A DNA stretch of 64,000 nucleotides, taken from contig NZ_SAYT01000008.1 in the NCBI RefSeq assembly GCF_004296575.1, positions 1 to 64,000 of the forward strand, written 5' to 3'. The position numbers and the translations under genes are program-made. The DNA comes from Dyella amyloliquefaciens. Its GTDB lineage: Bacteria > Pseudomonadota > Gammaproteobacteria > Xanthomonadales > Rhodanobacteraceae. Position 1 is the first letter of the stretch. The number at the start of each line of letters is the position of its first letter. The notes under the pieces were generated by a model, which did no database searches, was not told the DNA's origin, and worked only from the letters and a program-made list of their open reading frames with translations. Of the stretch, positions 1 to 27,690 are shown one piece after another.

Positions 1-325
1 CGGCGCGCGACTAGCCCATCATGGCCCAGCACCGCTATGCGGTGTGGTTGTCAGAGGCCGGATATACGTGTGCAGTCGACACGGACGCCAGAGCACGGGA
101 GGCTTGCAATGGGGAGGAGTCCATATACGGTTGATTGGACGACCCCTGCGCACGTCGACGAGCGTGGCCGGCCTCCCCGAACGGCATAGACCAAGTACCC
201 GGCGCGTTCCGCCCACATGGCCAAGGGTCGCCACACGGACCCGGTGGTAGCTTGCCGCTGCGAAAGATCGGAAGGGCAGGCCGCTCATCGGGCGGCGCCG
301 GTGATCTGACGGGGGGTCGCACACC
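1..325. other. leading stretch without a supported gene
   Basis: No convincing coding region was found before the acyltransferase. Several short frames exist on both strands, but none has a recognisable product together with a plausible ribosome site. The G-rich run at 310-316 probably serves as the ribosome binding site of the downstream gene. Nothing else is claimed here. Confidence 0.5.
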
Positions 326-1474: not shown

Positions 1475-1479
1475 CGGTT

Positions 1480-1734
1480 TCAGGGCATGTATTGCCCGAT
1501 GATCATGGCGTTGAGCTGGCGCCCCTTCCAGAACATGTGGTGGATCCGCTCGCTCAGCTTCTCCAGTGACTTCGAGCTGATGTCGCCGAAGCTGAGCATC
1601 ACCGCAGGCCGCGAGCCATCGCCCGGAACGTGTTCGATGCCGTCCCAAGCCGGGAAACCGTACTTGGCCAGGAACTCGCCGAGTTCCTCGTCCGACGTTC
1701 CCGGTTCGATGTTGCCCAGCAGTAGACGCAGCAT
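1480..1734 (-). CDS. small RRM-like RNA-binding protein
   Basis: An 84-residue protein starting MLRLLLGNIEPG. The LLLGNI segment resembles the RNP2 strand of an RNA-recognition motif, and it is followed by helix-like EELGEFLAKYG. A second half (VMLSFGDISS) would occupy the RNP1-like strand, but the aromatic RNP1 consensus is not clear. A longer upstream start exists at 1779; the one chosen begins directly at the domain. The gene lies just downstream of the polyphosphate kinase on the same strand (60-base gap) and may be co-transcribed. The RNA-binding role is inferred from the fold-like pattern only. Confidence 0.65.
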   Translation of the reverse strand: MLRLLLGNIEPGTSDEELGEFLAKYGFPAWDGIEHVPGDGSRPAVMLSFGDISSKSLEKLSERIHHMFWKGRQLNAMIIGQYMP

Positions 1735-1794
1735 GGTCGTTCCTCCTGCAACGCCGCCGATCAGCCTCGCTGACGGCAACGATCGTGGCGATCG

Positions 1795-2616
1795 TCAGTA
1801 CTTCACCGGAATGAAGCGGAAGGGATACTCGGGTTCGCGATAGTCGCCGCGCTTCTGACGCTTGGGCAGCTCGATCTTCGGCCGATCCACCTCTTCGTAG
1901 GGAATGCGGCTGAGCAGGTCGGCGATGATGTTGAGGCGCGCGCGTCGCTTGTCGTTGGAATCCACCACCAGCCATGGCGCGAACTGCGTATCGGTCGCCT
2001 TGAACATCTCGTCGCGCGCACGCGAGTAGTCGTACCAGCGGCTGTACGACTTCAGGTCCATCGGCGACAGCTTCCAAACCTTGCGCCCGTCGTGGATGCG
2101 GCCCTTGAGCCGACGGGTCTGCTCTTCCTCGCTCACTTCCAGCCAGTACTTGAGCAGGATGACGCCCGAGGTGACGATGCCCCGCTCCACCAGCGGCGCC
2201 ACGCGCAGGAAGCTTTCGACCTGCTCTTCGCTGCAGAAGCCCATCACCCGTTCCACGCCAGCCCGGTTGTACCAGCTGCGATCGAAGATCACGATCTCGC
2301 CGGCCGCCGGCAGATGCGGCAGGTAGCGCTGGATGTACATTTGGCTTTTCTCGCGCTCGGTCGGCGCCGGCAGCGCCATCACGCGGAACACGCGCGGACT
2401 GACGCGCTCGGTGATCGCCTTGATGGTGCCGCCCTTGCCCGCACCATCGCGCCCTTCGAAGACGATGCAGACCTTGGCGCCCGACTTCTGCACCCACAGC
2501 TGCAGCTTGACCAGCTCGACGTGGAGCTTTTCCAGCTCCTTGGCGTATGCCTTGCCCGTCAGGCGGACATCTTCGACGGGAGCCGGCTGCTCCGCTTCCT
2601 TCTTGCCCTTTGCCAT
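1795..2616 (-). CDS. ppk2: polyphosphate kinase 2 (PPK2 family)
   Basis: A 273-residue cytoplasmic enzyme that moves phosphate between polyphosphate and a nucleotide. A Walker A loop (GRDGAGKGG, residues 55-63), a Walker B-like IVIFDRSWYNR near residue 108 and the lid motif GRIHDGRKVWKLSP are all present, and the length fits single-domain PPK2. The ATG at 2616 was preferred over the in-frame start at 2682 because a GAGGGG ribosome site precedes it and the family sequence begins soon after. Whether it favours ADP, GDP or AMP phosphorylation cannot be decided by eye. It belongs to phosphate or stress metabolism, not to the sugar locus beside it. Confidence 0.9.
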   Translation of the reverse strand: MAKGKKEAEQPAPVEDVRLTGKAYAKELEKLHVELVKLQLWVQKSGAKVCIVFEGRDGAGKGGTIKAITERVSPRVFRVMALPAPTEREKSQMYIQRYLPHLPAAGEIVIFDRSWYNRAGVERVMGFCSEEQVESFLRVAPLVERGIVTSGVILLKYWLEVSEEEQTRRLKGRIHDGRKVWKLSPMDLKSYSRWYDYSRARDEMFKATDTQFAPWLVVDSNDKRRARLNIIADLLSRIPYEEVDRPKIELPKRQKRGDYREPEYPFRFIPVKY

Positions 2617-2829
2617 GGCATCGCGCCCCTCGCTTGAGAGATCACCCGCAACGACTCCGGTAAACCACCCGGCACAAAACACGCACAGAGGCGTCGCCGA
2701 TGCACGGCGCCGCCCTGCCGGCCACCATCACCGGTCGCCGCTTTACACACGATCAGCGTGACAGCAGGGCCATCAAGCCCCCGTCAACCGAAGTGCGACG
2801 GCAACTGCGTAGTTCTACTGGGAAAGCCG

Positions 2830-3675
2830 CTAGAGCCAGTCGATCTGGAACCAGGCCGAAAGCGAGGCGCCCGCGGCGACGGTCGCGGCCAGACCGAGGT
2901 TGAAGGCGTCGGGCGGCCCGGTCTGTGGCTCGACGCAGGTGGCGTGCCGGGGTTCGTCGTACACCACCCAATGGTGGCAGTCGGAGCTGAGCCGGATGCG
3001 CTGCCCGTTCCGGTGCAGCTCCACCGGCCGCTCGTTGAGGAAACAGTCGTCCCACGGTGCGGGAGGCGGCTCGACCAGGGGCAGAAGCGCCAACCCTTCC
3101 GCATCGCGCGGATAGCATCGGCTTGGCTCGAACTCGAGGCGGTCGGGCTTGCGGAACCAGGGGTGCCAGCCAAGCACGGCCGGCATGTCGTGCTCGCCCG
3201 CCGTCAACGTCAACACCAAGCGCAGCTGCCGATCGGCGACCTCGATGCGCTGGATGACTCGCCCACCGAACGGCCAGCGCTTGTCCTGTGGCAGCGCCAG
3301 CGACAGCTCCACGTGGCTCGACGATTGCGCCTCGACCTGCCACGGCAGGGCAAAGCCCACGCCATGGATGGCGTGGTTGCCAAGATTGATCGGCAAGGCG
3401 TGCCGCCTGCCCTGCCATTCGAAACGCCCCGCACGCACGCGACCCGCCCACGGCACCATCGGATAGCTGCCCCAGGCGATCATGGCCTGGGTGTGCTCGT
3501 CGTGGCCCACCAGCCAGTCGAGGCCATCGAAGCGGATTCGCGCCACGCGCCCGCCCGCGGCCGGTGCCACCGTCACTTCCAGCGCAGCATGCCGGATGCC
3601 GACCAGCGGACCGGGGGCCATCGGCGCCAGCGCGTCGTCGCCACCCGACACCGGCACCTGAGCGTCACTCGCCAT
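2830..3675 (-). CDS. galM: aldose 1-epimerase family protein
   Basis: A 281-residue protein of the galactose mutarotase-like fold, which interconverts alpha and beta anomers of free sugars. Family landmarks are the histidine-containing NHAIHGVGF segment near residue 100, HPWF in the middle and the conserved acidic residues of the C-terminal half. Its ATG overlaps the end of the upstream GH43 gene by 11 bases, so translation is probably coupled. As last gene of the receptor-symporter-GH43 operon it would supply the anomer needed for catabolism of xylose or arabinose released by GH43. No signal peptide, so cytoplasmic. Exact sugar preference unknown. Confidence 0.85.
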   Translation of the reverse strand: MASDAQVPVSGGDDALAPMAPGPLVGIRHAALEVTVAPAAGGRVARIRFDGLDWLVGHDEHTQAMIAWGSYPMVPWAGRVRAGRFEWQGRRHALPINLGNHAIHGVGFALPWQVEAQSSSHVELSLALPQDKRWPFGGRVIQRIEVADRQLRLVLTLTAGEHDMPAVLGWHPWFRKPDRLEFEPSRCYPRDAEGLALLPLVEPPPAPWDDCFLNERPVELHRNGQRIRLSSDCHHWVVYDEPRHATCVEPQTGPPDAFNLGLAATVAAGASLSAWFQIDWL

Positions 3676-4681
3676 ACGGATGCAGGCAGACGATGCCGCC
3701 GTCGTCGTCGTAGGTCAGCTTCACCATCTTGATCGAGCGCAGGTGGGTCACGCCGCCCGACAGGATCGAGTCGTGATAGAACAGGAACCAGCGATCACCC
3801 ACTTCGCAGATGGAGTGATGCGTGGTCCAGCCGACCACCTCGGTGAGGATCCTGCCCTGGTAGGTGAACGGACCATACGGGCTGTCGCTGATCGCATAGC
3901 ACAGGAAGTGGGTGTCGCCGGTCGAATACGACAGGTAGTACCTGCCGCGATAGGCGTGCATCCACGGCCCTTCGAAGTAGCGGCGCTCGTGGTCGCCGGC
4001 CAGCAGCGGCCGGCCCTGCCCATCCACGATGCTGATCTCGCGCGGCGCCTCCGCGAACGACTTCATGTCCGCCGCGAGCCTGGCGATGCGCGGCCCCAGC
4101 GCGGGCTCGTGCGCAGGCGGCTCCTCGTGGGACGCGTCATGGAGGTTGTCGCGATACTTCTGCAACTGGCCGCCCCAGATGCCGCCGAAAATCATGTAGA
4201 ACGCGCCGTCCTTGTCCTCGAACACCGCCGGATCGATCGAATAGCTGCCTTCGATGGCTTCGGGTTCGGGAGTGAAGGGTCCCTCCGGCCGATCGGACAC
4301 GGCCACGCCGATCTGGAACAGGCCGTTGCTGCGCTTGGCGGGGAAATACAGGTAGTAGTGGCCATCCTTGCGCGCCGCATCCGGCGCCCACATCTGGCGA
4401 TCGGCCCACGGCACGTCCTTCACATGCAGCGCGACGCCACAGTCGACCGCTTCGCTTTCCGGCGTGTCCATGCGGAAGACGTGGTAGTCCTCCATGCAAA
4501 AATGATCGCCATTGTCGTTGAAGGGCACACCGCCCTCGATGTCATGCGAGGGATAGATGTAGATCTTCCCGTCGAACACATGCGCCGAGGGATCAGCCGT
4601 ATAGATGTGCGTTACCAGCGGCACCGAGATGGCGCGTGCCGCTAGCGCGGCGAGGTCTTGGGTGGGAATGTCGTCCGACAT
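3665..4681 (-). CDS. cytoplasmic glycoside hydrolase family 43 (xylosidase/arabinofuranosidase type)
   Basis: A 338-residue single-domain GH43 five-bladed propeller. The catalytic triad can be read: general base Asp30 in TADPS, pKa-tuning Asp150 in YSIDPAVF and general acid Glu237 in YFEGPWMH. There is no signal peptide, unlike the other GH43 at 20426-22108, so it should act in the cytoplasm on short xylo- or arabinoxylo-oligosaccharides imported by the adjacent symporter. The frame extends further upstream, but the ATG at 4681 begins the family sequence and clears the symporter gene (ends 4714). Beta-xylosidase is most likely; alpha-L-arabinofuranosidase remains possible. Confidence 0.88.
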   Translation of the reverse strand: MSDDIPTQDLAALAARAISVPLVTHIYTADPSAHVFDGKIYIYPSHDIEGGVPFNDNGDHFCMEDYHVFRMDTPESEAVDCGVALHVKDVPWADRQMWAPDAARKDGHYYLYFPAKRSNGLFQIGVAVSDRPEGPFTPEPEAIEGSYSIDPAVFEDKDGAFYMIFGGIWGGQLQKYRDNLHDASHEEPPAHEPALGPRIARLAADMKSFAEAPREISIVDGQGRPLLAGDHERRYFEGPWMHAYRGRYYLSYSTGDTHFLCYAISDSPYGPFTYQGRILTEVVGWTTHHSICEVGDRWFLFYHDSILSGGVTHLRSIKMVKLTYDDDGGIVCLHPYGE

Positions 4682-4713
4682 GGCGATACCTGGTGACTGA
4701 GACCGGCGCCCGC

Positions 4714-6201
4714 TCAGCAGGCGTGGCCTGCGGCGAGGCGGCGGGCGCCGAGTTCCTGCTCGATGCGCAGTTCCATCGACTTGTTGATGCGGTAGAAGAA
4801 CAACAGCCCGACCGCGAGCAGGAACGGCAGCGAGCAGAACAGGCTCACGGTCAGGCGGATGCCGTCGACCACCTCGGGCGTCTGCGTTGCCGCGTCGGGA
4901 ACGTAGCCGTGATGGGCAAGGATGCCCGCCACCAGTGCGCCGCCGATGCTCAGGCCCACCTTCAGGCCACACAGCATCGCCGAGAAGATGATTGCGGTAG
5001 CGCGACGACTGTTCTTCCATTCGGAGTAATCGGCGACGTCCGCGATCATCGCCCACAACAGCGGGATGGTGATGCCGTAGAAGAAGCCGTGGAGGATGTA
5101 CGAGCCCACCACCAGACCGATCGAGGCCGGCGTATACACATAGAACGCCAGCAGGAACACGGTGGAGGCGAGCAGCGCGCCACCGAACACATCGCGCTTG
5201 CCGAAGCGGTCGGCGAGACGCTTGGAAAAGCCGATGCCGACGATCATGAAGATGATCCCCAGCGCGTTGAACAGGCTGAACGCCGAAGTCGGCGCATCCT
5301 TCGGCCAACGGAATTCGGTCAGGCCCAGGTGGCCGAGCAGCGTATTGAGCCCGGCGATGAAGCCGTTGAAGCCGACCTGGTCGAGGAACGCGGACAGCTG
5401 GGCTTCGTCCAGGTAGTACTTGAAGTAATAGATGTACGTACCGCCCTTCAGGGCCAGGTTGACGAACAGCAGCACGGTGATCGCCAGCATGATCTGCCAG
5501 GGTCGGTTGCGCATGAGGTCGGCCAGGTCCTCGCGGACGCTGGAGGCCTGCTCGTTCACCGGCACGATGCGTTCGCGGGTGGTGAGGAAGGTGACCAGGA
5601 AGAACACCGTTCCCACGATGGCGAAGATGGTCATGGTGCGGTGGAAGCCGAGCGCCTTGTCGCCGTCACCGAGGATCAGCACCAACGGCAGCAGCAGGAC
5701 CTGGATAACGAACTGGGCGACCATCACGGCCACGAAGCGATAGGCAGAGAGGCTGTTGCGCTCGGCCATGCTGCCGGTGAGCACGCCGCTCAGGGCCGAG
5801 TAGGGCAGATTGTTGGCCACGTACACCAGCACCAGCAGGGTGTAGGTCGCCATCGCATAGGTGACCTTGGCCTGCTCGCCCAGCGCCGGCGTGCTGAAGG
5901 CCAGCAGCGACAGCGCGCCGAACGGGATCGCCGTCCACAGCACCCAGGGGCGGAACTTGCCCCAGCGCGTACGCGTGCGGTCCGCCACCAGGCCCATGAT
6001 CGGCGTGAACACGAACGCACCCAGCAGGCCAACCACGAAGATCAGCGTGGCCGCCGTGGCCGCGGGAATGCGGAACACGTCGGTGTAGAAGAACGCCAGG
6101 AAGGTCACCAGCGTCTGGAAGATCAGGTTCGCGGCCAGATCGCCCAGGCTGTAGCCGACCTTTTCCACCACCGTGAGCCGTTGCGGAGTACTGCTGTTCA
6201 T
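4714..6201 (-). CDS. GPH-family sugar:cation symporter (MFS)
   Basis: A 495-residue inner-membrane transporter with about twelve hydrophobic segments. It carries the glycoside-pentoside-hexuronide family signature: an N-terminal VGYSLGDLAANLIFQ segment, the loop GLVADRTRTRWGKFRPW and a NNLPYSALSG motif. Such proteins import glycosides such as xylosides or melibiose with H+ or Na+. Its place between a TonB receptor and an unexported GH43 suggests xylo-oligosaccharide uptake. A strong hairpin (6271-6308) separates it from the receptor gene, so its mRNA level may be lower. Substrate is inferred from context. Confidence 0.88.
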   Translation of the reverse strand: MNSSTPQRLTVVEKVGYSLGDLAANLIFQTLVTFLAFFYTDVFRIPAATAATLIFVVGLLGAFVFTPIMGLVADRTRTRWGKFRPWVLWTAIPFGALSLLAFSTPALGEQAKVTYAMATYTLLVLVYVANNLPYSALSGVLTGSMAERNSLSAYRFVAVMVAQFVIQVLLLPLVLILGDGDKALGFHRTMTIFAIVGTVFFLVTFLTTRERIVPVNEQASSVREDLADLMRNRPWQIMLAITVLLFVNLALKGGTYIYYFKYYLDEAQLSAFLDQVGFNGFIAGLNTLLGHLGLTEFRWPKDAPTSAFSLFNALGIIFMIVGIGFSKRLADRFGKRDVFGGALLASTVFLLAFYVYTPASIGLVVGSYILHGFFYGITIPLLWAMIADVADYSEWKNSRRATAIIFSAMLCGLKVGLSIGGALVAGILAHHGYVPDAATQTPEVVDGIRLTVSLFCSLPFLLAVGLLFFYRINKSMELRIEQELGARRLAAGHAC

Positions 6202-6270
6202 GTGCGCTGGTGTGCCTGTGTGAACTTTGCCATCCGATGCTCCTGCGGTCGAACTTCCATCATGACAGGG

Positions 6271-6308
6271 CGCGGTCCGTCCGGCTCGGGTGAGCCGGAC
6301 GGACCGCG
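6271..6308 (-). repeat. intercistronic hairpin after the TonB receptor
   Basis: A 17-base-pair perfect inverted repeat (arms 6271-6287 and 6292-6308, loop of four) lies 21 bases past the receptor stop codon and about 70 bases before the symporter start. No T-run follows it on the minus strand, so a full rho-independent terminator is unlikely. It more probably stabilises the 3' end of the receptor mRNA or attenuates readthrough. Confidence 0.75.
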
Positions 6309-6329
6309 ACTGCTTCAGGCGTGGTGCAA

Positions 6330-9218
6330 TCAGAAGCTGCCGCGGATGCCGAGCATGACGGTGTAGCCCGGCGTGTAGTACGTGTAGGCAGCGTTGTCGT
6401 AGGTGAGCGTCTGACGGAAGTTCTCCTTCGTCAGGTTGATCACGTTGAAGGTGATGCTCGGCTTGGACGGCAGGTTCGGCAGGTCGTAGCTCGCCGACAG
6501 GTCGAGCTGGCCACGGGCGTCGGTCTTGATCACCGCGAACGGCAGGCCGTTCTGGTTCGCCGTGGAGCTGATCTGCGAGGAGTTCCAGGTGTAGGCCAGG
6601 CGGACCATCGCACCGTAGCCTTCCCAGTAACCGGTGAGGTTGTAGGTGTGCGGCGAGATGCCGATCGCCTGTGCGGGCACGCCGCCGCCGATGCTCTTTT
6701 GCGAGACCACGGTGTAGTTCGCCTGGAAGCCCAGGCCCTTGAACACGAAGTCCAGCGGCTGCACCCAGTTCGCTTCCGCACCCTTGATCTGCAGGAGCCC
6801 GTCAGCGTTGACTTGCTGGGTCACCTGCACCATCGCCGAATTCGGCCCGCCGCGCAGGTTGATGGCCTGCTGCTGCGTGTCGGTCAGGGTGGCGAACGGA
6901 ACGCCGAGCTGGCTGAACGGAATGAGGTTGGTTCCGTTCACGGTGAAGCCGGTGATGCGCTTGCCGAACAGATCCAGCGCCACATAGCCTTCGTTGCCGG
7001 TGTACCACTCGCCACCGAGGTCCAGGTTGGTGGACAGGTACGGCTTCAGCTTCGGATTGCCTTCGGAGGCGATTTCCGCCGCCGGGTCGCTGAAGTTGGT
7101 GTTGGGCATCATCGCGCTCGGATCCGGACGGGTCATCGAGCGCGAGGCCGCCAGGCGCAGGATCACGCTGTCGGTAGCGTTGTAGGCGACGTTCAACGAC
7201 GGCAGGTAGTAACCGTAGTTGTTCTTCAGCGTGATGTACTGGATCTGGCCACCGAGATTGGACGGACCGGAAATGGTCTGGTCGGTGGAGGCATGGCGGA
7301 TACCGCCGTTGACGCGCAGGTCATGACCGTTCAGGTCCCACTTGCCGTTGCCTTCCAGGTACATGCCCCAGGTGCTTTCCTCGATGTTGCCGGCGTTGGC
7401 ACCGCTGGCGGCCGAGGTGGTCAGCGGGGCGTTGGCATTGAGGTAGGCATAGTTGGTCGCGGCCATCAGCGCGGCCGAATTGACCGTGATGAAGCCGTTC
7501 GGACCCGCCGACAGGTACGGACCCCAGCCATTCTTGGCGATGACGGCATTCACCTCGGTCTGCCAGGCGGCGCTGTTGTCGTAGGCCTTGATGTCGCGCG
7601 AGATGTCGTCGTAGGCGACACCGGCGCGCAGGTTGTTGCTGTCGTCGCCGTACTGGAAGTCCCAGCGCGTACCCTGGTTGTCGGTGACGCGAGCCTCGTT
7701 CTGGATGTTGACGCGGTACGTGGTCCACGGCAGCGTCGGGTCGTTGAGGTTGATCGCCGGCGAGATCGACGGATAGCTGCCGCCGGTGTTGTTGTAGGAC
7801 ACCGTGGTCGTCGGCGAGCTGACGTCGATCGACGGCGCTTCCTGGCGGTACCAGCTGCGCTGGACATAACCCTGGAAGTCCAGCTTCATGTTGCCTTCGT
7901 CACCGAACAGCAGCTCGCCGCCCGGATTGATGTTGTAGAACTTGGTGTGCTGGTCGTACGGACGATCTTCAAGGAAGTACTGCGCGTTGGCGAAGGTCGC
8001 CTGGGTCACCACGTTGTTCTGGTCGACCTGCATGCCCACCGGGATCATCTGGCCGCTGCGGCCCACCAGGTTCATGTCGGCGCGGTCGAACTCGCGGTCC
8101 TTCTGCGAGAACAAGGTGTCCAGGTAGAAATGCGCCCAGTCGGCCGGACGCCATTCCACCGAGGCCATCGCGGACTGGTGGTCGTTGGTGCCGTCGGTGT
8201 AGGCATCGCGGCCCAGGCGCGGGATCAGCGCATTGGCAAGCTGCGAGGTGGTCAGGCCCGGATTGAGGGCCAGCAGCGACGCGTTGTTGAGCGCCGTGCC
8301 TGCCACGAGGCCCGCGCCAGCGCCGGCCGGCACCGTGCCCGGGATGACCCAGCTGCCACCGGCCGGGCTGCAATGGCCAGCGACGGTGCCGCATTGGGCG
8401 GCGGTCAGCTGCGGCGTGGTCCAGCCCACGGTCTCGAAGCCGCGCACGTCGTAGTCGTTGTTGGACGCCTGCACGCCGACCAGGGCACCGAACGTGTTGT
8501 CGGCGTTGGTCCAGCTGCCGATCAGGGCGCCACGCGGGCGCACGTTGCTGCCGATCGAGTTGTAGCTGGCCTGCGCCGAATAGGTCAGGTGCGTACCCGG
8601 ATTGTCGAACGGACGGGTGGTGCGCATGTCGACCACGCCGGCGATGCCGCCCTCGGTCATGCTCGGCGTCGGCGTCTTGTTGACGGTCAACTGCGTGAAG
8701 AACTCGGTCGGCAGCAGGTCGAGGTCGACCTCGCGGTTCTGGTTCTGTGCGTTCAGGCCGCCGGCAGATGCCACGGCCAGCTGGGATCCGTTGAGCAGGA
8801 TCTTGGTGAAGTCCGTGCCGAGGCCGCGGATCTGCACGTTCACGCCTTCGCCGTCCACGTCGCGGGTCAACTGCACACCCGGCACGCGAGTGAGCGACTC
8901 GGCGATGTTGGTATCGGGGAACTTGCCGATGTCTTCGGCAAATACCGAGTCGGTGACATTGGTGGCATCACGCTTGGCATCCGTGGAGAACTGGATGCTG
9001 CTGCGGTAGCTGCCACTGACGTTGACTGCGCCCAGCGTCTTGGCCGACTGGTCGGCCTTGCCCTGGTCCTGCCCGCTGGCCTGGGTCTTGCCATTGGCCT
9101 GCGGCGCGGCGGCCTGCGTCGTCGACTGATCCTGTGCCTGGGCGGTCCCCACCACGCCAAACAAGGCAAGACTCAATGCGCTGGACAACAGGGTTCTTGC
9201 AAACTGACTCTGCACCAT
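6330..9218 (-). CDS. TonB-dependent receptor, Xanthomonas/Caulobacter type
   Basis: A 962-residue outer-membrane receptor. A signal peptide ending near AQAQD is followed by a Gln/Ala/Lys-rich linker, then the plug domain (VTDSVFAEDIGKFPDTNIAE and IRGLGTDFTKILLNGS) and a long beta barrel ending in a terminal Phe (LGIRGSF) suited to BAM insertion. The plug wording matches the TIGR01782-like family known for carbohydrate uptake in Xanthomonas and Caulobacter. It is first gene of the operon with symporter, GH43 and epimerase, and a xyl-box lies about 120 bases upstream. Probable role: active import of xylo-oligosaccharides into the periplasm. A GAGGGAG-like ribosome site precedes the ATG. Confidence 0.93.
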   Translation of the reverse strand: MVQSQFARTLLSSALSLALFGVVGTAQAQDQSTTQAAAPQANGKTQASGQDQGKADQSAKTLGAVNVSGSYRSSIQFSTDAKRDATNVTDSVFAEDIGKFPDTNIAESLTRVPGVQLTRDVDGEGVNVQIRGLGTDFTKILLNGSQLAVASAGGLNAQNQNREVDLDLLPTEFFTQLTVNKTPTPSMTEGGIAGVVDMRTTRPFDNPGTHLTYSAQASYNSIGSNVRPRGALIGSWTNADNTFGALVGVQASNNDYDVRGFETVGWTTPQLTAAQCGTVAGHCSPAGGSWVIPGTVPAGAGAGLVAGTALNNASLLALNPGLTTSQLANALIPRLGRDAYTDGTNDHQSAMASVEWRPADWAHFYLDTLFSQKDREFDRADMNLVGRSGQMIPVGMQVDQNNVVTQATFANAQYFLEDRPYDQHTKFYNINPGGELLFGDEGNMKLDFQGYVQRSWYRQEAPSIDVSSPTTTVSYNNTGGSYPSISPAINLNDPTLPWTTYRVNIQNEARVTDNQGTRWDFQYGDDSNNLRAGVAYDDISRDIKAYDNSAAWQTEVNAVIAKNGWGPYLSAGPNGFITVNSAALMAATNYAYLNANAPLTTSAASGANAGNIEESTWGMYLEGNGKWDLNGHDLRVNGGIRHASTDQTISGPSNLGGQIQYITLKNNYGYYLPSLNVAYNATDSVILRLAASRSMTRPDPSAMMPNTNFSDPAAEIASEGNPKLKPYLSTNLDLGGEWYTGNEGYVALDLFGKRITGFTVNGTNLIPFSQLGVPFATLTDTQQQAINLRGGPNSAMVQVTQQVNADGLLQIKGAEANWVQPLDFVFKGLGFQANYTVVSQKSIGGGVPAQAIGISPHTYNLTGYWEGYGAMVRLAYTWNSSQISSTANQNGLPFAVIKTDARGQLDLSASYDLPNLPSKPSITFNVINLTKENFRQTLTYDNAAYTYYTPGYTVMLGIRGSF

Positions 9219-9339
9219 ACTCCCCTCTCGATTCTGGTATCGCGATCGTCCCCAGGGCGCTATTGCGGCACCCGCCCGGTGATCTGATTCGGATCAATCC
9301 GCCAACGCGACGCCTGCTGGCATCGCGATGCGCCGAAAA

Positions 9340-9352
9340 GGTAGCGCTAACA
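9340..9352 (-). promoter_or_regulatory. xyl-box operator, receptor promoter
   Basis: GGTAGCGCTAACA, which matches 13 of the 14 bases of the published Xanthomonas xyl-box TGGTAGCGCTAACA (the first T is A here). It sits about 120 bases upstream of the TonB receptor start. It is probably bound by the LacI-family regulator encoded at 27691. Confidence 0.8.
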
Positions 9353-9463
9353 CTTTGGGGCCGCACGCTGCAGGGCAGCATTGGAATTCAGGTTCGTTAA
9401 TAAGCCTTAAAAACGGCCGGATTCGTGAGTCACGGCCCATCGTTTTCTTGCGGGCAGCGAGTG

Positions 9464-9492
9464 ATGACTTTCCTGTTTGGCCTCGCTAATAA
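9464..9492 (+). promoter_or_regulatory. sigma-70-like promoter of the hexuronate/xylanase operon
   Basis: Candidate -35 ATGACT (9464-9469) and -10 TAATAA (9487-9492) with a 17-base spacer. The palindromic operator begins at the next base, so a bound LacI-type repressor would cover the transcription start. The -35 match is moderate (four of six). Confidence 0.55.
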
Positions 9493-9506
9493 TGGTAGCG
9501 CTACCA
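9493..9506. promoter_or_regulatory. perfectly palindromic xyl-box operator
   Basis: TGGTAGCGCTACCA is a fully symmetric 14-base palindrome, the ideal form of a LacI-family operator. It abuts the candidate -10 box of the rightward operon and lies 46 bases before the transporter ATG. It shares the TAGCGCTA core with the sites at 9340 and 33272. Confidence 0.85.
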
Positions 9507-9551
9507 AAACAGGCCATCCGAAGGCCGCCGGTGACGAGGGGAGACGTCCAC

Positions 9552-10946
9552 ATGCAGCGCAGTCCACCGCAGTCCGGAGCCGATGTCGTTTCGCGCCCGC
9601 ATGGCAGCGAACGCGATACCGGCGCAGGTGGCCCTGCGGCGACTCAGGGTGCCGCGCCTGCGCATGGCGCGAGCGTCGGTCGTTATCGCTGGCGTGTTTG
9701 CGCCATGCTGCTTGCGGCAACCACCATCAGTTACGTGGATCGCCAGGTGCTCGGTGTGCTCGCGCCGTTCCTGCAGGACAAGATCGGCTGGAGCGAACTG
9801 GAATACAGCACCATCGTCACCTCGTTCCAGGCGGCCTACGCGATCGGCCTGCTTTGCGCCGGCGCCGTGATCGACCGCTTCGGCACGCGCATTGGCTATG
9901 CGATCGCCATCGGCATCTGGAGCATCGCGGCGATGAGCCATGCGCTCGCCACCGGCGTGGTCAGTTTCGCCGCGGCGCGCTTCGCGCTCGGGCTGGGCGA
10001 GTCCGGCAACTTCCCCGCCGCGATCAAGGCCGTGGCCGAATGGTTTCCGCAGCGCGAACGGGCGCTGGCCGCGGGCATCTTCAATTCCGGATCGAATATT
10101 GGCGCCATCGTTGCACCCCTGGCCGCCCCGTTCATCGCCGCCCGCTGGGGCTGGCAGGCGGCGTTTCTGTTCACCGGTGCATTGAGTGCCACCTGGCTGA
10201 TGGCCTGGCTGATCACCTATCGGACACCCGACAGCCAACCGCGACTGTCAGCCGCCGAACGCGCCTACATCTGCAGCGACCACGAACCACCCGCACGGCG
10301 CGTGGCATGGTCGCAACTGCTGCGCCACCGCCAGACCTGGGCGTTCGCCGCGGCCAAGTTCATCACCGATCCGATCTGGTGGTTCTTCCTGTTCTGGCTG
10401 CCCAAGTTCCTTCACGCGCAATACGGCCTCAGCCTGATGGAACTGGGCCTGCCGCTGATCACCGTGTTCCTGCTTGCCGACGCCGGCAGCATCGCCGGAG
10501 GCTGGCTTGCCGGACGCCTGATCCGTCGCGGCTGGAGCGTCAACCGCGCACGCAAGGGCACCATGCTCCTGTGCGCGCTGGTGATCGTACCCATCGTGTT
10601 CGCCGCCAGGGCCAACCACCTGTGGCTCGCGGTGGTGCTGGTGGGCCTCGCCACGGCGGGCCACCAGGGCTGGTCGGCCAACGTGTACACGCTGACCTCG
10701 GACATGTTTCCCCGTTACGCGGTCGCCTCGGTGGTCGGCATCGGCGGTTTCGCCGGCGCAGTGGGCGGCATGCTGATCTCGACCGTGACGGGTCTGCTGC
10801 TACAGGCCACCGGCAGCTACGTGCCGGTATTCGTGATGGCGGGTGGTGCCTACCTGCTTGCACTGGCGGTCGTGCAACTGCTTTCGCCTACGCTGGCACC
10901 CGCGCAGATGGACGTCCAACCTTCCACCTCAACAACCATGGCGTGA
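9552..10946 (+). CDS. exuT: MFS hexuronate transporter (ExuT-like)
   Basis: A 464-residue MFS permease with about twelve membrane segments after a hydrophilic N-terminus of roughly 50 residues. The segment SYVDRQVLGVLAP and the loop VIDRFGTRIGY fit the anion:cation symporter group that includes hexuronate carriers. The start was set at 9552 because GAGGGGAG precedes it by 8 bases; an earlier in-frame start at 9477 lies upstream of the operator and is unlikely. It leads an operon with GH10 xylanase (4-base gap) and uxaC, so glucuronate released from glucuronoxylan is the likely cargo. Confidence 0.85.
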   Translation: MQRSPPQSGADVVSRPHGSERDTGAGGPAATQGAAPAHGASVGRYRWRVCAMLLAATTISYVDRQVLGVLAPFLQDKIGWSELEYSTIVTSFQAAYAIGLLCAGAVIDRFGTRIGYAIAIGIWSIAAMSHALATGVVSFAAARFALGLGESGNFPAAIKAVAEWFPQRERALAAGIFNSGSNIGAIVAPLAAPFIAARWGWQAAFLFTGALSATWLMAWLITYRTPDSQPRLSAAERAYICSDHEPPARRVAWSQLLRHRQTWAFAAAKFITDPIWWFFLFWLPKFLHAQYGLSLMELGLPLITVFLLADAGSIAGGWLAGRLIRRGWSVNRARKGTMLLCALVIVPIVFAARANHLWLAVVLVGLATAGHQGWSANVYTLTSDMFPRYAVASVVGIGGFAGAVGGMLISTVTGLLLQATGSYVPVFVMAGGAYLLALAVVQLLSPTLAPAQMDVQPSTSTTMA

Positions 10947-10950
10947 AGCG

Positions 10951-11943
10951 ATGAGGGTATCGATCCTGTTCTGGCTCGCACTCGCCGTCGGCGCGCCGGC
11001 GCTGCAGGCGCAGGACGTGCCGCTGGCCGCGGGTTCGCCGAAATTCCTGGGCAGCGCCTACAGCGCAACCCAGGCGCCTGACTTCGCCCGCTACTGGAAC
11101 AAGGTGACGCCCGAGAATGCCGGCAAGTGGGGCAGCGTCGAAGCCGTGCGCGGCACCATGGAATGGACGAAGCTGGACGAGGCCTACCGCTTCGCCAAGG
11201 ACCATGGCTTCCCGTTCCACCTGCACGTGCTGACCTGGGGCCAGCAGCAACCCGCATGGCTGCTCAAGCTGCCGCCCGACGAACAGCGCCGCGCCATCGA
11301 ACATTGGTTCGACGCCGTTTCGGCCCGCTATCCCGACGCCGATTTCGTCGAGGTGGTGAACGAGGCGCTGCACAGCCCGCCCAGTGCCAAGCGCAAGGAT
11401 GGCGGCAACTACCGGCAGGCGCTGGGCGGCGACGGCGCCACCGGCTGGGACTGGGTGGTCACCGCGTTCCGCCTGGCGCGCCAGCGCTTTCCGCATGCCA
11501 GGCTGCTGATCAACGACTACAGCATCACGCGCAGCGACAAATCGACCGGACAGTACCTGCAGATCATCGAGCTGCTGCAGAAGGAGCACCTCGTCGACGG
11601 CATCGGCCTGCAGGAACACGCCTTCGAGACCACGCCGGACGTGCCGATGGCGGTCCATCGCGCCAACCTCGACCGGCTGGCGTCCACGGGGCTGCCGATC
11701 TACATCACGGAGCTGGACATCGACGGCCGCGACGACGCGCGCCAACTGAAGGACTACCAGCGCGTATTCCCCGTGTTCTGGCAGCATCCGGACGTCAAGG
11801 GCATCACCTTGTGGGGCTTCCGGCCAGGCCTGTGGCGCGACAAGCAGGGCGCCTACCTGGTACGCAAGGACGGCAGCGAACGTCCCGCGCTGGCCTGGCT
11901 GCGCTCGTATGTCAGCGGCACGAAGCCCACCCCCGCACCGTGA
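10951..11943 (+). CDS. GH10 endo-beta-1,4-xylanase
   Basis: A 330-residue exported GH10 enzyme consisting of a signal peptide (about residues 1-20, ending LQAQ) and one catalytic TIM barrel, with no carbohydrate-binding module. Catalytic acid/base Glu138 is in EVVNEALHS and nucleophile Glu254 in YITELDI. The substrate-contact segment LTWGQQQPAW is also present. The ATG at 10951 follows the transporter stop by 4 bases and starts exactly at the signal peptide. Lacking a binding module, it likely trims xylan fragments in the periplasm or at the surface. It sits between the hexuronate carrier and glucuronate isomerase. Confidence 0.93.
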   Translation: MRVSILFWLALAVGAPALQAQDVPLAAGSPKFLGSAYSATQAPDFARYWNKVTPENAGKWGSVEAVRGTMEWTKLDEAYRFAKDHGFPFHLHVLTWGQQQPAWLLKLPPDEQRRAIEHWFDAVSARYPDADFVEVVNEALHSPPSAKRKDGGNYRQALGGDGATGWDWVVTAFRLARQRFPHARLLINDYSITRSDKSTGQYLQIIELLQKEHLVDGIGLQEHAFETTPDVPMAVHRANLDRLASTGLPIYITELDIDGRDDARQLKDYQRVFPVFWQHPDVKGITLWGFRPGLWRDKQGAYLVRKDGSERPALAWLRSYVSGTKPTPAP

Positions 11944-11991
11944 TCGTCGCGTCCACGCCTCCACGCATCCCTCTCACCTGATCTCCCGACC

Positions 11992-13419
11992 ATGCCCACC
12001 GCGATCCGCCCCCTGACCCTGCACGAAGACCGCCTGTTCTCCTCCGACCCGCTGCAACGGGCCATCGCCCGGCGCCTGTACGCGGACGTGGCGAACTTGC
12101 CCATCATCAGCCCCCACGGCCATACGGATCCGGCGTGGTTCGCCGGCAACGAGCCGTTCGCCAACGCGACGGAGCTGCTGCTGGTACCGGACCACTACGT
12201 GTTCCGCATGCTCTACAGCCAGGGCGTCCCGCTCGATGCGCTGGGCATTCCGCGTTCCGACGGCTCGCGCGCCGGGGTCGACCCGCGCGATGCATGGCGG
12301 GTGTTCGCCGAGCGCTTCCACCTGTTCCGGGGTACGCCGTCGTCGATGTGGCTGAACCATGTCTTCCACGACGTGTTCGGCCTGCGCGTGAGCCTGGACG
12401 CGGCCACCGCCGACCTGTATTTCGACCACATCAATGAGGCGCTGCGGCAGCCCGGGTTCAGGCCGCGGGCCCTGTTCGAGCGCTTCCAGATCGAAGTGAT
12501 CGCCACCACCGAGTCACCGCTCGATCCGCTCGAGCATCACGCGGCGATCCGCGACAGTGGCTGGCAGGGTCGCGTGATCACCGCGTATCGGCCCGATGCC
12601 GTGGTCGATCCGGAACACGAGCAGTTCCCTGCCGCCCTGCAGCGCTTCGGCGAACTCACCGGCGAGGACGTGCACCGCTGGGACGGCTATCTCAGGGCGC
12701 ATCGCCAGCGGCGCGCCTTCTTCGCCAGCATGGGCGCCACGTCCACCGATCACGGGCATCCCACCGCGGCCACCGCGAACCTCTCGCAGGCCGAGGCGGC
12801 CCGCCTGTTCGACACCGTGGTGCGTGGCCAGGCAAGCGCTGCGGAAGCAGAACTGTTCCGTGCGCAGGTGCTGACCGAGATGGCGGCGATGAGCGTGGAC
12901 GACGGCCTGGTGATGCAACTGCACCCGGGCTGCTATCGCAACCACAACCTCGGGCTGTTCGAGCGCTACGGGCGCGACAAGGGCGCGGATATCCCCCTGC
13001 GCACCGAATACGTTCGCGCGCTCAAGCCGCTGCTCGACCGCTTCGGCAACGAGCCGGGCTTCCAGCTCATCCTGTTCACGCTGGACGAGAGCAACTACAG
13101 CCGCGAACTGGCACCGCTGGCCGGCCACTACCCCTCGCTGTTGCTGGGGCCGGCATGGTGGTTCCACGACGCGCCGGAGGGCATGTGGCGCTTCCGCGAG
13201 CAGACCCTGGCCAGCGGCGGCTTCTACAACACGGTGGGCTTCAACGACGACACGCGCGCCTTCCTCTCCATTCCGGCGCGCCACGACGTGGCCCGCCGCA
13301 TCGACTGCGCGTTCCTGGCCAGGCTGGTGGCGGAACACCGCATGGAGGAGGACGAAGCCGCCGAAGTCGCCCGCGACCTCGCCTATCGCCTGCCGAAGAA
13401 AGCCTACAAGCTCGATTGA
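11992..13419 (+). CDS. uxaC: glucuronate isomerase
   Basis: A 475-residue cytoplasmic enzyme converting D-glucuronate to D-fructuronate (and galacturonate to tagaturonate). The N-terminal metal-binding motif ISPHGHTDPAWF is clear, and the length matches the UxaC family. It is third gene of the transporter-xylanase-uxaC operon, 48 bases after the xylanase. Its product is the substrate of UxuB at 15122-16597. No strong ribosome site precedes the ATG. A symmetrical hairpin follows the stop codon between this gene and the converging GH35 gene. Confidence 0.95.
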   Translation: MPTAIRPLTLHEDRLFSSDPLQRAIARRLYADVANLPIISPHGHTDPAWFAGNEPFANATELLLVPDHYVFRMLYSQGVPLDALGIPRSDGSRAGVDPRDAWRVFAERFHLFRGTPSSMWLNHVFHDVFGLRVSLDAATADLYFDHINEALRQPGFRPRALFERFQIEVIATTESPLDPLEHHAAIRDSGWQGRVITAYRPDAVVDPEHEQFPAALQRFGELTGEDVHRWDGYLRAHRQRRAFFASMGATSTDHGHPTAATANLSQAEAARLFDTVVRGQASAAEAELFRAQVLTEMAAMSVDDGLVMQLHPGCYRNHNLGLFERYGRDKGADIPLRTEYVRALKPLLDRFGNEPGFQLILFTLDESNYSRELAPLAGHYPSLLLGPAWWFHDAPEGMWRFREQTLASGGFYNTVGFNDDTRAFLSIPARHDVARRIDCAFLARLVAEHRMEEDEAAEVARDLAYRLPKKAYKLD

Positions 13420-13427
13420 GGCGACAG

Positions 13428-13460
13428 CCGGCCTCCGCCCCCATGTGCAGCGGAGGCCGG
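13428..13460. terminator. bidirectional hairpin between uxaC and GH35
   Basis: An 11-base-pair perfect GC stem (13428-13438 with 13450-13460) and an 11-base loop occupy almost the whole gap between two converging genes. There is no long T-run on either side, so termination strength is uncertain, but the position fits a shared terminator. Confidence 0.6.
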
Positions 13461-13464
13461 GTGC

Positions 13465-15087
13465 TCAGCGCTCGATGGCGTGCATCCTGACGCGATAGAG
13501 CCGGGCGTGGCGCGGATCCATCATCAACTGCCGTCCCTGGTTGCTCTGGTCACCGTTCAGTCGCCGCAGGGTCTGCCACGCGGCGCCGTTGCGGGACACT
13601 TCCTCGATGCTCCCGATGCCCGCCACGCGCGCATCCACGTCCGGATCCCGACGGATGTTGACGGTAAGGCCGGTGCCGAGGATGTAGAACTCGTCCGGCG
13701 CCGACTGCAGCACCAGCATCGCGCCGTCTTGGGTTTCCAGCGTCTTCGCCGGCCATGAACGCGACAGCGTGCCTTCGAACAGGTAGCCGCCCAGCGCGAC
13801 CGTCTGCGTCGGTCGCGGGCTGCTGGCGTGCAGAACCAGTCCCCGCGTGCGCCCGTCGGCCTGTGCCGCGGGAAGCATGTCGCCCAGATCACGCAGTCCG
13901 CCGTACACCTGCATCAGCAGCGGCGATGCCGCCGCGTCGTCGTCCGGTGCGGGCAGGCTGTCGATGTCGAACGGACTGAAACCAAAGCCGCGCGCCTCGC
14001 CGTACAGGTAAAGCGCGTTGTACGGCGCCACTTCCAGCCGCGCCTCGGGCACGAATACGGGGTTGCCCAGTGCCTGGTAGCGCTGCACCCAATGGGCGAA
14101 CTCCGGCCAGTAGATATCGGGCGAATAGAAGTCGATATGGCTCGCGACCGCCTGGTACACCTGCTGGAAATAGGGGTGGGAGCCGCCGCTTGGATACTCG
14201 CCGGCCCGTTCCTGCGGCGCGGGCAGCTGCACGTTCAGGTACATCGGCAACGCGTACTGCGCCTTGCCGGCACCGGCCACGGCATCGATATAGGTGGCAT
14301 AGCGCCATGCCATGAACACTTCGTCCGCGGCATCGCCGAACACGTCCTTCCACGTGTGTCCCTGCGCATTGAAATGCGCGGCCAGCTCGGGCGACAGCGT
14401 GGCGCGGCGCGCCTGCAACGCCTGCAGCAGGGCGGCAGGCACGTCACCACCGAAGGCGCGATTGGCGGCGTCGGAGCGGTCACGGCGTTCGCCAAGCACG
14501 CCCACCTCGTTCTCCACCTGCACCATCAGCACGGTCTGTTGCCTGTCCTTCGTACGCAGGTGCGCCATCAGCGCCGCGAACGCCTTGCTGTCCAGGCGCA
14601 GCGTTTCCTCGCCGAAGGTGGAGAGGATTTCCAGCGGTGCGCCATCGATGCCACGCGCACGCGGAAAGCGGCGTGTGTCGGCCTTCACCCAGGCCGGCGC
14701 GTACTCGGAGAAGCTGTTCTTCCAGCTGCCGAACCACAGCAGGACGAGGTGCATGCGCTGTGCGCGGGCCTGATCGATCCAACGGTCCAGCAGGCGGAAA
14801 TCGTAGCTGCCTTCACGTGGCTCCAGCTGGTCCCAGGCCACCGGCACCAGCACCGTGTTGACGTGCAGCGAGGCCAGCCGCGGCAGGATGGCCTCGGCCT
14901 GGGCCTCGGTGCCCGCCGACGAATTGCCCAGTTCGCCACCCAGGATCACATACGGCTTGCCGTCCACGATCAGCTGGCTGGCGCCCTGCGCCAAGGTCAC
15001 CCGCGGCAACTCGCTGGCCTGCGCGCTGCAGGCCAGCAGGGCCAGCGCACCCATGCACGCACGCAGGCGATTCGTCGTCTGTTTCAT
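13465..15087 (-). CDS. GH35 beta-galactosidase-like protein with C-terminal extension
   Basis: An exported protein of about 540 residues. A signal peptide (MKQTTNRLRAC to about SAQA) is followed by a TIM-barrel domain of the GH35/GH42 type: LGGELGNSS near the start, NTVLVPVAWDQLEP, and a candidate acid/base Glu in LMVQVENEVG. The C-terminal beta-rich part resembles the DUF5597 domain of this subgroup. The ATG at 15087 was chosen because it opens a clean signal peptide; an alternative at 15120 would touch the uxuB stop. As last gene of the eight-gene operon it may remove galactosyl or related decorations from hemicellulose; activity is inferred. Confidence 0.82.
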   Translation of the reverse strand: MKQTTNRLRACMGALALLACSAQASELPRVTLAQGASQLIVDGKPYVILGGELGNSSAGTEAQAEAILPRLASLHVNTVLVPVAWDQLEPREGSYDFRLLDRWIDQARAQRMHLVLLWFGSWKNSFSEYAPAWVKADTRRFPRARGIDGAPLEILSTFGEETLRLDSKAFAALMAHLRTKDRQQTVLMVQVENEVGVLGERRDRSDAANRAFGGDVPAALLQALQARRATLSPELAAHFNAQGHTWKDVFGDAADEVFMAWRYATYIDAVAGAGKAQYALPMYLNVQLPAPQERAGEYPSGGSHPYFQQVYQAVASHIDFYSPDIYWPEFAHWVQRYQALGNPVFVPEARLEVAPYNALYLYGEARGFGFSPFDIDSLPAPDDDAAASPLLMQVYGGLRDLGDMLPAAQADGRTRGLVLHASSPRPTQTVALGGYLFEGTLSRSWPAKTLETQDGAMLVLQSAPDEFYILGTGLTVNIRRDPDVDARVAGIGSIEEVSRNGAAWQTLRRLNGDQSNQGRQLMMDPRHARLYRVRMHAIER

Positions 15088-15121
15088 CCGGTTCGCTCTC
15101 ATCCGTTGCCGTGCTTCCATG

Positions 15122-16597
15122 TCATGCCGCCTTCAGCACGCGCGCCAACGTGCCTGGCAAGGCATCGCCCAGCGCCCCGTAGGCACGCAACAGCCACGTG
15201 CGGAAGCGCGCATCGCCCGACAGCGGCGCAAACACCGCGTCCAGGGCAAGGAAGGCGGGCACGTCCGTCTCCGGATCGCCGCTGCACTCGCGCCCCACGG
15301 CCGACAGCACCTCGTTGAGCGGATCCACCAGCGCCACGCCGCGATGCGCCTGCCGCCGCACGAAATGCATCCATGCCGCGATCGGCACGCACAAGGGCGC
15401 GATGGTGCGTTGCTGGCGCAGCGCTTCGCCGATGGTGCTGAGCAGGCGCACCGGCAACTTCTGCGAACCGTCCCACGCGATCTGCGAAAGGCGATGGCGA
15501 ATGGAAGGATTGCGGAAGCGCTGCAGGATCGCGTCGATGTAGGCACCCGCATCCAGGCCCTGCGGAAGCGCGATGACCGGCGCGATGTGTTCGCGCATCA
15601 GGCGTTCGACGAAGGCGGCCAGGGCCGGCTCGGCCATCGCATCACCCACGCTGTCGATCTCCATCAGCGAGCCAAGATAGGCTAGCGTCGAATGCGCGCC
15701 GTTGAGCAGTCGCAGCTTGGCGCGATCGTAGCCCGCGATGTCGCTGCTCAGGGTGACACCGGCCAGCTCCAGTGGCGGGCGATCGTTGCAGAAGTGATCC
15801 TCGACCACCCATTGCGTATAGGTCTCGCGCTGGATCGGCCACGCATCCACGAGTCCAAGCTCATGCCGCACACGCTCGCGCAGGGCGTCATCGGTGGCCG
15901 GCGTGATGCTGTCGACCATCGAGCAGGGAAACGCGGCCTGCGCGTCTATCCACGAGGCCAGCGCGGTGTCGACAATGCGTGCGTACTGCAGCAAGGCGCG
16001 GCGCAGGCGGTGACCGTTGTCGGCGAGGTTGTCGCAACTGAGCACCGTGTAGGGCGCGATGCCTTGCTGGTAGCGCGCTCGCAGGCCTGCCACCAGATAG
16101 CCGATGGCACTGCGCGGCTCGTCGGGCGAGGCAAGGTCATGCTCGATGTCGGGATGGGCGAGGTCCAGGTCCTGGCCCGCGAGGCAATAGCCCTTCTCGG
16201 TGATGGTCAGAGTCACCAGCTTCACCGCCGGATCGGCAAGACGCGCGAGCACGGCGGCGGATTCGTCGCGGGCGCACAGCCATTCGCGGATCGAGCCGAT
16301 GATGCGCAACCGGCTTTCCTCGCCGAGCAGGGCCAGCGTGTAGAGCCCGTCCTGCGGACGCATCGCATCGCGGGCGTCGCTGCTGTGCAGCGACACGCCG
16401 CAGATCGCCCAGTCGGGATGGTCGGCCAGCAGGTCGTCGATGGCGACCGCCTGATGCGCGCGATGGAATGCGCCGGCACCGATGTGCACGACGCCGATGT
16501 TCACGCCTTCCCGTGCATAGGCGGGCCGCTGCACGGTCGCTGGAAGTTGGTCCAGAGCCTGCGACGACAGACGCGGTGTCGAAGATTCGATGGCCAT
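15122..16597 (-). CDS. uxuB: fructuronate reductase (mannitol dehydrogenase family)
   Basis: A 491-residue NAD-dependent long-chain polyol dehydrogenase: N-terminal nucleotide fold with VVHIGAGAFHRAHQA and a C-terminal helical domain including KLRLLNGAHS. In this context it should reduce D-fructuronate from UxaC to D-mannonate, the substrate of ManD. The kdgK stop and this ATG share one base (TGATG), so translation is coupled. Mannitol or tagaturonate specificity cannot be excluded from sequence, but every neighbouring gene serves the glucuronate branch. Confidence 0.9.
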   Translation of the reverse strand: MAIESSTPRLSSQALDQLPATVQRPAYAREGVNIGVVHIGAGAFHRAHQAVAIDDLLADHPDWAICGVSLHSSDARDAMRPQDGLYTLALLGEESRLRIIGSIREWLCARDESAAVLARLADPAVKLVTLTITEKGYCLAGQDLDLAHPDIEHDLASPDEPRSAIGYLVAGLRARYQQGIAPYTVLSCDNLADNGHRLRRALLQYARIVDTALASWIDAQAAFPCSMVDSITPATDDALRERVRHELGLVDAWPIQRETYTQWVVEDHFCNDRPPLELAGVTLSSDIAGYDRAKLRLLNGAHSTLAYLGSLMEIDSVGDAMAEPALAAFVERLMREHIAPVIALPQGLDAGAYIDAILQRFRNPSIRHRLSQIAWDGSQKLPVRLLSTIGEALRQQRTIAPLCVPIAAWMHFVRRQAHRGVALVDPLNEVLSAVGRECSGDPETDVPAFLALDAVFAPLSGDARFRTWLLRAYGALGDALPGTLARVLKAA

Positions 16598-17640
16598 CAA
16601 CGCTTCACCTCGAAGCCGCCCTCGGCGAGCAAGGCGTGGATGTCCGCCTCGCGTGACAGGTTCACGTCGCCGGGAATGGCGTGCTTGAGACAGGTCGCCG
16701 CGAGCGCGAACTCCAGCGACGGCGCATCACCCAGGCCCCGCAGAAGACCGTGCAGGAAACCGGCGGCGAAGGCATCACCGCCACCGATGCGATCGACGAT
16801 GCCGGAGAGCCGGCGCGGTGCCGTGGTCAGTACACCGTCACGCAGGGCCAGCATGCCGGTGAGTTCCTGGTCGTCGACGTTGTGGTGATGTCGCTCGGTC
16901 GCCACCAGGCGGCGCAACGCAGGCCATGCCGCAAAGGCGGCCGTGGCCGCCGCACGAAAGCGGTCGGTCGCGCCTGCTTGCTCGAAGGACTGGTCGAGCA
17001 TCAGGGCGATGTCGCGATCATTGCCGAACACCAGTTCGGCCTCCGCCACCAGCTCGCGCAACACCGCGGGCGCTTTCGGTGATCGCGCTCCCCACAGCCT
17101 GCTGCGGTAGTTGCAGTCGAAGGACACGCGCACACCCGCCGCACGCGCTGCACGCACGGCGGCGAGGGCTGCATTCGTCGTGGTCTGACCCAGGGCCAGG
17201 TTGATGCCGGACAGATGCAGCCACTGCGCTCCCGCCAACAGGCGCGGCCAGTCATAGGCCTCCGCAGGCGTACGCGAGAATACCGAGTCGGCACGGTCGT
17301 ACAGCACCTCGGGTGGTCGCTGCATCGCCCCCGGCGAGAGGAAATAGATGCCCATGCGACCGTCGGCATACTGCAAGCCCGACGTATCCACGCCATGGCG
17401 GCGCAACTCGCCCGCGCAGGCATGGCCGATCGCGTGATCCGGCAGGGCACTGACCATCGTGCAGTGATGGCCCAGGATGGCAAGCGACGATGCGACGTTC
17501 GCCTCCGCACCGCCGAAGCGCGCCTCGAAGCGCGGCGACTGCAGTGGCAGTTCATGGCCGGGTGGCGACAACCTCAGCAGAAGTTCGCCGAAAAAAACGA
17601 CGCGGCCCGACCCGGGATGCGTGGTTGTCACGTCAGACAT
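16597..17640 (-). CDS. kdgK: 2-dehydro-3-deoxygluconokinase (PfkB family)
   Basis: A 347-residue PfkB-family sugar kinase. The N-terminal VVFFGELLLRLSP and GGAEANVASSLAILG motifs and the C-terminal DRIGGGDAFAAGF with the catalytic Asp are intact. In the pathway it phosphorylates KDG, made by ManD from mannonate, to KDPG. It overlaps uxuB by one base and follows GH3 by 12 bases. No KDPG aldolase gene is in the window, so the final cleavage must be encoded elsewhere. Confidence 0.93.
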   Translation of the reverse strand: MSDVTTTHPGSGRVVFFGELLLRLSPPGHELPLQSPRFEARFGGAEANVASSLAILGHHCTMVSALPDHAIGHACAGELRRHGVDTSGLQYADGRMGIYFLSPGAMQRPPEVLYDRADSVFSRTPAEAYDWPRLLAGAQWLHLSGINLALGQTTTNAALAAVRAARAAGVRVSFDCNYRSRLWGARSPKAPAVLRELVAEAELVFGNDRDIALMLDQSFEQAGATDRFRAAATAAFAAWPALRRLVATERHHHNVDDQELTGMLALRDGVLTTAPRRLSGIVDRIGGGDAFAAGFLHGLLRGLGDAPSLEFALAATCLKHAIPGDVNLSREADIHALLAEGGFEVKR

Positions 17641-17652
17641 GGATCATCTCTC

Positions 17653-27583: not shown

Positions 27584-27690
27584 ATGCAAGAATGAACTCC
27601 TATCCGATCCGACATCAGCACTGACAGCGACGGCCGAGGCCGGTGCAGCACGGGCCTCGTGGTGTCAGCGCCGCGCGAGGAAAAACGGCA

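Follow-up and report, generated by a model that had tools for sequence, protein, structure and literature searches.

In the Dyella amyloliquefaciens genome, a gene for a TonB-dependent receptor and genes for a sugar carrier, a xylanase and a glucuronate isomerase diverge from a region that contains a perfect 14-bp palindrome. This arrangement raises the questions of which regulator would bind the palindrome, how the palindrome is placed relative to the promoter, and whether its complete symmetry distinguishes it from similar sites nearby. These questions were addressed using a window of 64,000 nucleotides (contig NZ_SAYT01000008.1, positions 1 to 64,000) and the corresponding loci of related genomes.

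The palindrome and similar sites in the window

The sequence at 9493-9506 is TGGTAGCGCTACCA, which equals its own reverse complement and has 7-bp arms, beyond which the symmetry ends; the full symmetry ascribed to this copy in the initial annotation is therefore confirmed. Palindromes of such length are not rare, and 12 perfect palindromes of at least 14 bp were observed in the window compared to approximately 7.9 expected from base composition. It is the sequence itself that goes beyond chance: it has a single exact copy in the 4,834,900-base genome by whole-genome search, and relatives have a homologous box in the corresponding position. The pattern NGGTAGCGCTANCN was found at three genome sites (9339, 9493 and 33272), all inside the window, and the reversed control pattern gave 23 matches.

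Three further operator copies, described earlier as asymmetric and left unplaced, were taken here as 9339-9352 (AGGTAGCGCTAACA), 33272-33285 (TGTTAGCGCTACCA) and 27569-27582 (GGTTATCGCTAACA), and all three are indeed asymmetric as identified in this way. The site at 39068-39081 (TGGTTGCGCTACCG), likewise asymmetric, outscores 27569 and is an alternative candidate for one of the three.

Relationship to the XylR/xyl-box regulon

The xyl-box TGGTAGCGCTAACA, which PMC10380989 and PMC7748154 give for X. campestris with reference to Dejean et al., is present without change at 33272-33285 on the minus strand, 20 bp before the gene for the xylulokinase XylB (31740-33251, minus strand). Relative to this published box, there is one mismatch at 9493, one at 9339 (the distal box, on the TonB-receptor side), and three at 27569. 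The LacI-family regulator encoded at 27643-28770 on the plus strand, among xylan-degradation genes, contains LacI and Peripla_BP_3 domains and is the XylR orthologue. Among the best 80 of 583 matches in named genomes, its nearest relatives include those of Dyella sp. C9 (89%) and Dyella halodurans (83%), and its identity to nine Xanthomonas loci within the same best 80 is 63-70%. A LacI-type XylR orthologue was found in all 32 of the tested genomes that bear the carrier locus.

As summarized in PMC13282271, a LacI-type XylR represses the xylan loci of X. campestris and X. oryzae, and xylose and short xylo-oligosaccharides are the inducers. The XylR regulon of Xanthomonas campestris pv. campestris (Dejean et al. 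2013, as relayed in PMC10380989, PMC7748154 and PMC13282271) shares its exact box with the window, and is also similar in having a LacI-type XylR orthologue and xylan, xylose and TonB-receptor gene targets. The operator form, the orthologous LacI-type regulator in the genome and the same three classes of target genes were all found here. With the exact published box and the Xanthomonas regulon quoted in this way, the kind of system is already known, namely the XylR/xyl-box regulon, which is here extended, together with its promoter geometry, to Dyella. The sequence at 9493-9506 is very probably the proximal of two XylR operators in the divergent promoter region of a xylan/glucuronoxylan locus, and it appears to be an ordinary, well-conserved repressor-type operator of a known regulon. 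The regulon of this genome differs from that of Xanthomonas in that its proximal box is the G/G symmetric form. In addition, of the nine Xanthomonas loci in the best-80 set, seven (L150, L157, L158, L160, L161, L165 and L169) carry TGGTAGCGCAACCA as the box near xylR, whereas the window has the weak xyl-box-like site at 27569-27582 there, between xylR and the GH67 gene, with a score of 10.36.

A palindromic xylose-regulon motif is also described upstream of two TonB-receptor genes of X. campestris (PMC1790865). For the Caulobacter crescentus xylose regulon, as cited there, a palindrome precedes xylose and TonB-receptor genes and is also reported before XCC2828 and XCC4120 in Xcc; the Caulobacter motif is related to the xyl-box by citation. 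In terms of the wider LacI/GalR family, the window's regulator aligns to CcpA (1zvv, E 4.8e-51) and PurR (1bdh, 8e-39). The operators of CcpA and PurR are, like the xyl-box, even palindromes with a central CpG, and these proteins differ from XylR in half-site sequence and ligand class.

Several observations lie beside this assignment. An AraC-type XylR with PBP1_XylR and HTH_18 domains (33728-34894, plus strand) adjoins xylB, and the locus has both LacI-type and AraC-type xylose regulators. A box-like sequence, TGGTATCGCTACCA, differing by one base from the palindrome at 9493-9506 and with a score of 18.55, was observed at L005:1501-1514 (own contig C1, 1082993-1083006); it was set aside as it lies between threonyl-tRNA-synthetase-like and IF-3 genes with no xylan context. 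A literature text search whose coverage leaves out most subscription journals found no paper with the sequences of three boxes and three dyad forms.

Gene context and the start of the carrier gene

The box region is flanked on one side by the divergent TonB-dependent receptor gene (6330-9218, minus strand) and on the other by a plus-strand gene for an MFS carrier (9552-10946, stop codon at 10944-10946). The best models for the carrier are D-galactonate transporters, with a score under the NCBIfam cut-off, and its substrates, judged from context, are probably hexuronates or related sugar acids. The GH10 xylanase gene (10951-11943, plus strand) begins with an ATG at 10951, 4 nt past the carrier stop, and is followed by uxaC, encoding glucuronate isomerase (11992-13419, plus strand, ATG 11992); no plus-strand terminator-like sites were found from 10946 to 13419. 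The control of carrier, xylanase and uxaC by this site, as proposed initially, stands as a prediction from the gene spacing and the lack of a terminator-like site, while the label "hexuronate" is context-based. Downstream of uxaC are genes for fructuronate-reductase-like and PfkB sugar-kinase-like proteins, both below the NCBIfam cut-offs for a specific name, as are those for GH3, GH43 and GH67 enzymes, the LacI-family regulator at 27643-28770, and XylB. At 34983-38084, the minus strand encodes another TonB-dependent receptor, which belongs to the TonB-Xanth-Caul subfamily; the top-scoring sites near the start of its gene include no strong xyl-box.

An ATG at 9492 overlaps the palindrome and is in frame with the ATG at 9552, so that the palindrome could be read as the beginning of the carrier coding region rather than as an operator. 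The corresponding ATG is in frame in seven of the nine genus loci possessing it; however, L043 and L044 have it out of frame, and it is missing from L041 and L042. The ATG at 9552 has its own probable ribosome-binding site (AGGGGAG, 9537-9543, plus strand), and the same box precedes xylB and a related box the receptor gene. A gene start at 9492 was thus rejected, and the coding explanation of the palindrome is extremely unlikely.

Conservation of the two boxes

Carrier orthologues were collected from 20 genus genomes, giving 11 loci at 81% identity or more (own genome counted), and from 398 order genomes, giving 57 loci at E 1e-120 or better, of which nine were shared with the genus set, for a total of 59 loci. 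A box was defined as a sequence with up to two mismatches to TGKTAGCGCTAMCA in the first 32 loci, and with up to two mismatches to TGNTAGCGCTANCA in the upstream regions of the remaining 27. Two boxes were found upstream of the orthologous carrier gene in 53 of the 59 loci (31/32 in the first set and 22/27 in the second). L075 has one box only, and L246-L250 have none; the carriers of the latter, at 51-56% identity, are probably paralogues.

Of the genus loci, eight have TGGTAGCGCTATCA as the proximal box, two have TGTTAGCGCTACCA, and one, that of the Dyella amyloliquefaciens genome, has the palindrome. In all, 14 of 53 loci have a symmetric proximal box, which is TGATAGCGCTATCA in 12 and TGGTAGCGCTACCA in two. 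The two bases TA stand at -3 and -2 before the proximal box in 49 of 53 loci, and together with the 53 loci that have two boxes this marks the two-box promoter geometry, on the evidence of sequence comparison, as old.

Promoter geometry and proposed repression

A candidate -35 element, ATGACT (9464-9469, plus strand), is separated by 18 bp from a candidate -10 element, AATAAT (9488-9493, plus strand), whose last base is the first base of the operator. The initial annotation placed the start of the palindrome directly after the -10 box. This is true if the -10 is taken as TAATAA (9487-9492), but with AATAAT the two overlap by one base, at 9493. ATGACT-18-AATAAT is the sole sigma-70-like pair in positions 1-20000 of the window; since shuffled sequences give 2.1 such pairs, the pair alone is no evidence for a promoter, and outside evidence is needed.

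The pair beside the palindrome is kept in most genus loci, and a -35 of the form RTGACW at the same 18-bp spacing was found in nine of 11; in the other two, L041 and L042, no -35 was found and TAGTG precedes the box. When hexamers at 32 offsets were compared over 31 loci, the one ending at operator base 1 had the most matches to TATAAT (4.16 of 6; runner-up, 3.06). For the 11 genus loci, agreement with TTGACA at an 18-bp spacer was 3.64 of 6, compared to at most 1.73 for the six other spacings; over all 31 loci, it was 2.19 of 6. In the 20 loci from outside the genus, T at -6, G at -5, T at -3 and A at -2 are each present in 19. Outside the genus, then, the -10 resembles an extended TGnTA element without a clear -35, and the promoter type may differ.

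From the observed sequence, conservation, geometry, gene context and presence of XylR, a mechanism can be proposed in which the binding, start site, inducer and operon transcript are all predicted. Transcription would be expected to start approximately seven bases past the -10, near 9500 and within the operator. In the absence of inducer, a XylR dimer would occupy the abutting half-sites TGNTAGC and GCTANCA, covering the final -10 base and the expected start, and this would keep RNA polymerase off the MFS-GH10-uxaC operon. Xylose or short xylo-oligosaccharides would free XylR from the operator. The box at 9339-9352 would work likewise on the TonB receptor gene.

With two boxes 154 bp apart and kept in 53 of 59 loci, XylR could also be imagined to bind both and hold a DNA loop that shuts both promoters. 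The genus spacings of 154-156 or 164-165 bp, about one helical turn apart, gave a hint of this, but the hint vanished over 53 loci. The spacing is 149-184 bp in 52 loci and 251 bp in one, and it has no 10.5-bp phase (R 0.07, p ~0.76; the related loci are not independent, and a flexible loop would be compatible with this result), so looping is unsupported by helical phase. The C-terminus of the regulator, which we take to be unlike the LacI tetramer helix, also counts against it. A loop is quite unlikely.

Effect of symmetry on the operator

Another proposal was that full symmetry makes 9493-9506 distinctly the tightest and most repressing of the four sites, and that it was selected for this reason. 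By a matrix built from boxes picked by similarity, with named and unnamed sets that may share species, the palindrome does have the highest score in the window (25.48, compared to 25.22 at 33272, 22.62 at 9339, 13.40 at 39068 and 10.36 at 27569). Its margin is only 0.26 bit over the xylB box, and 2.9 and 15.1 bits over 9339 and 27569, respectively; the sister species' asymmetric box TGGTAGCGCTATCA, at 25.37, is 0.11 bit lower. As these margins are small for 33272 and large for 9339 and 27569, a clear difference in strength is predicted for the last two alone, mainly via bases other than the symmetric position. The palindrome would accordingly be nominally the best site in the window and not a distinctly tighter one.

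The frequency of symmetric boxes was determined in a pool of 145 boxes (30 proximal, 31 distal and 84 near XylR in named genomes), which left out the window genome's own two boxes and the 27 later loci. After removal of 68 boxes without an exact TGnTAGCGCTAnCA, 77 were analysed. Half-site position 3 is G, A or T, and 29 of the 77 boxes were symmetric compared to 30.1 expected under free combination of halves, so no excess of symmetric boxes was found in this pool. The named subset alone was slightly over expectation (17/33 compared to 14.5; the control pattern had nine matches in the same 1.48 Mb). In all 10 other genus loci the proximal box is asymmetric, overall it is symmetric in 14 of 53 loci, and the halves combine as if independent; the claim that full symmetry sets the site apart is not supported, and symmetry as a selected trait is unlikely. 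The perfect symmetry of 9493-9506 appears instead to result from two interchangeable half-sites that came together by chance, and not to be a special feature; it would be complete because position 3 may be G, A or T and both halves happen to match, and little added binding would be expected from it. Through the natural variation at position 3, operators of both kinds, symmetric and asymmetric, are already available for a comparison of affinities.

A conserved dyad beside the receptor-side box

The part of this region that a specialist might not expect is a 17-bp dyad, TGCTGCCCTGCAGCGTG (9364-9380, minus strand), which on the receptor strand precedes the distal box by 11 bp and is a candidate site for a second regulator. 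Of the first 32 loci, 31 contain the form TG(C/T/G)TGC-NNN-GCAGCGTG, lying on the receptor strand 10-12 bp before the distal box, and 13 of its positions are invariant in those 31. It was also found in 15 of the 27 later loci, for 46 of 59 overall. Seven loci have the boxes without the dyad; by eye, three are one base off and four have lost it. A stricter form, ATGYTGCYNTGCAGCGTG, occurs once each in 24 of 32 genomes and not in the other eight (reversed control, two matches), and all 24 sites are 188-358 bp away from where the carrier match begins.

The AraC-type XylR was considered as the binding protein. It is present in 12 of 32 genomes (E 1e-40), compared to the dyad in 31 of 32 loci, and in 19 loci the dyad is present but the protein is absent. 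With the LacI-type protein in 32 of 32 genomes, the AraC-type protein cannot be the general binder of the dyad and was rejected. The dyad was also considered as a small reading frame, as 27 of the 31 begin with ATG and four with TTG, and 24 of 31 continue as LPCSV. The frames range from eight to at least 100 codons with no conserved continuation, the frame shifts with the 10-12 bp gap, and later loci have other codons there, and this reading was likewise rejected. When the dyad was considered as a known RNA, no Rfam match was obtained up to E 1 in 9150-9650.

We tentatively propose, as a possibility somewhat short of even, a dual control of the divergent promoter by XylR and a further dimeric regulator, which most of the two families examined would share and which would bind ATGYTGC-NNN-GCAGCGTG (9364-9381, minus strand), perhaps with this promoter as its sole target. 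The dyad, 10-12 bp from the distal XylR box on its upstream side, would overlie the expected -35/spacer region of the TonB-receptor promoter, and the main alternative is that it is an unusual promoter element. In the Dyella amyloliquefaciens genome, the looser pattern TGYTGCNNNGCAGCGTG has two exact matches, the dyad and C1:90702. With one mismatch allowed, it has 53 matches compared to 10 for the control, and such loose forms are common.
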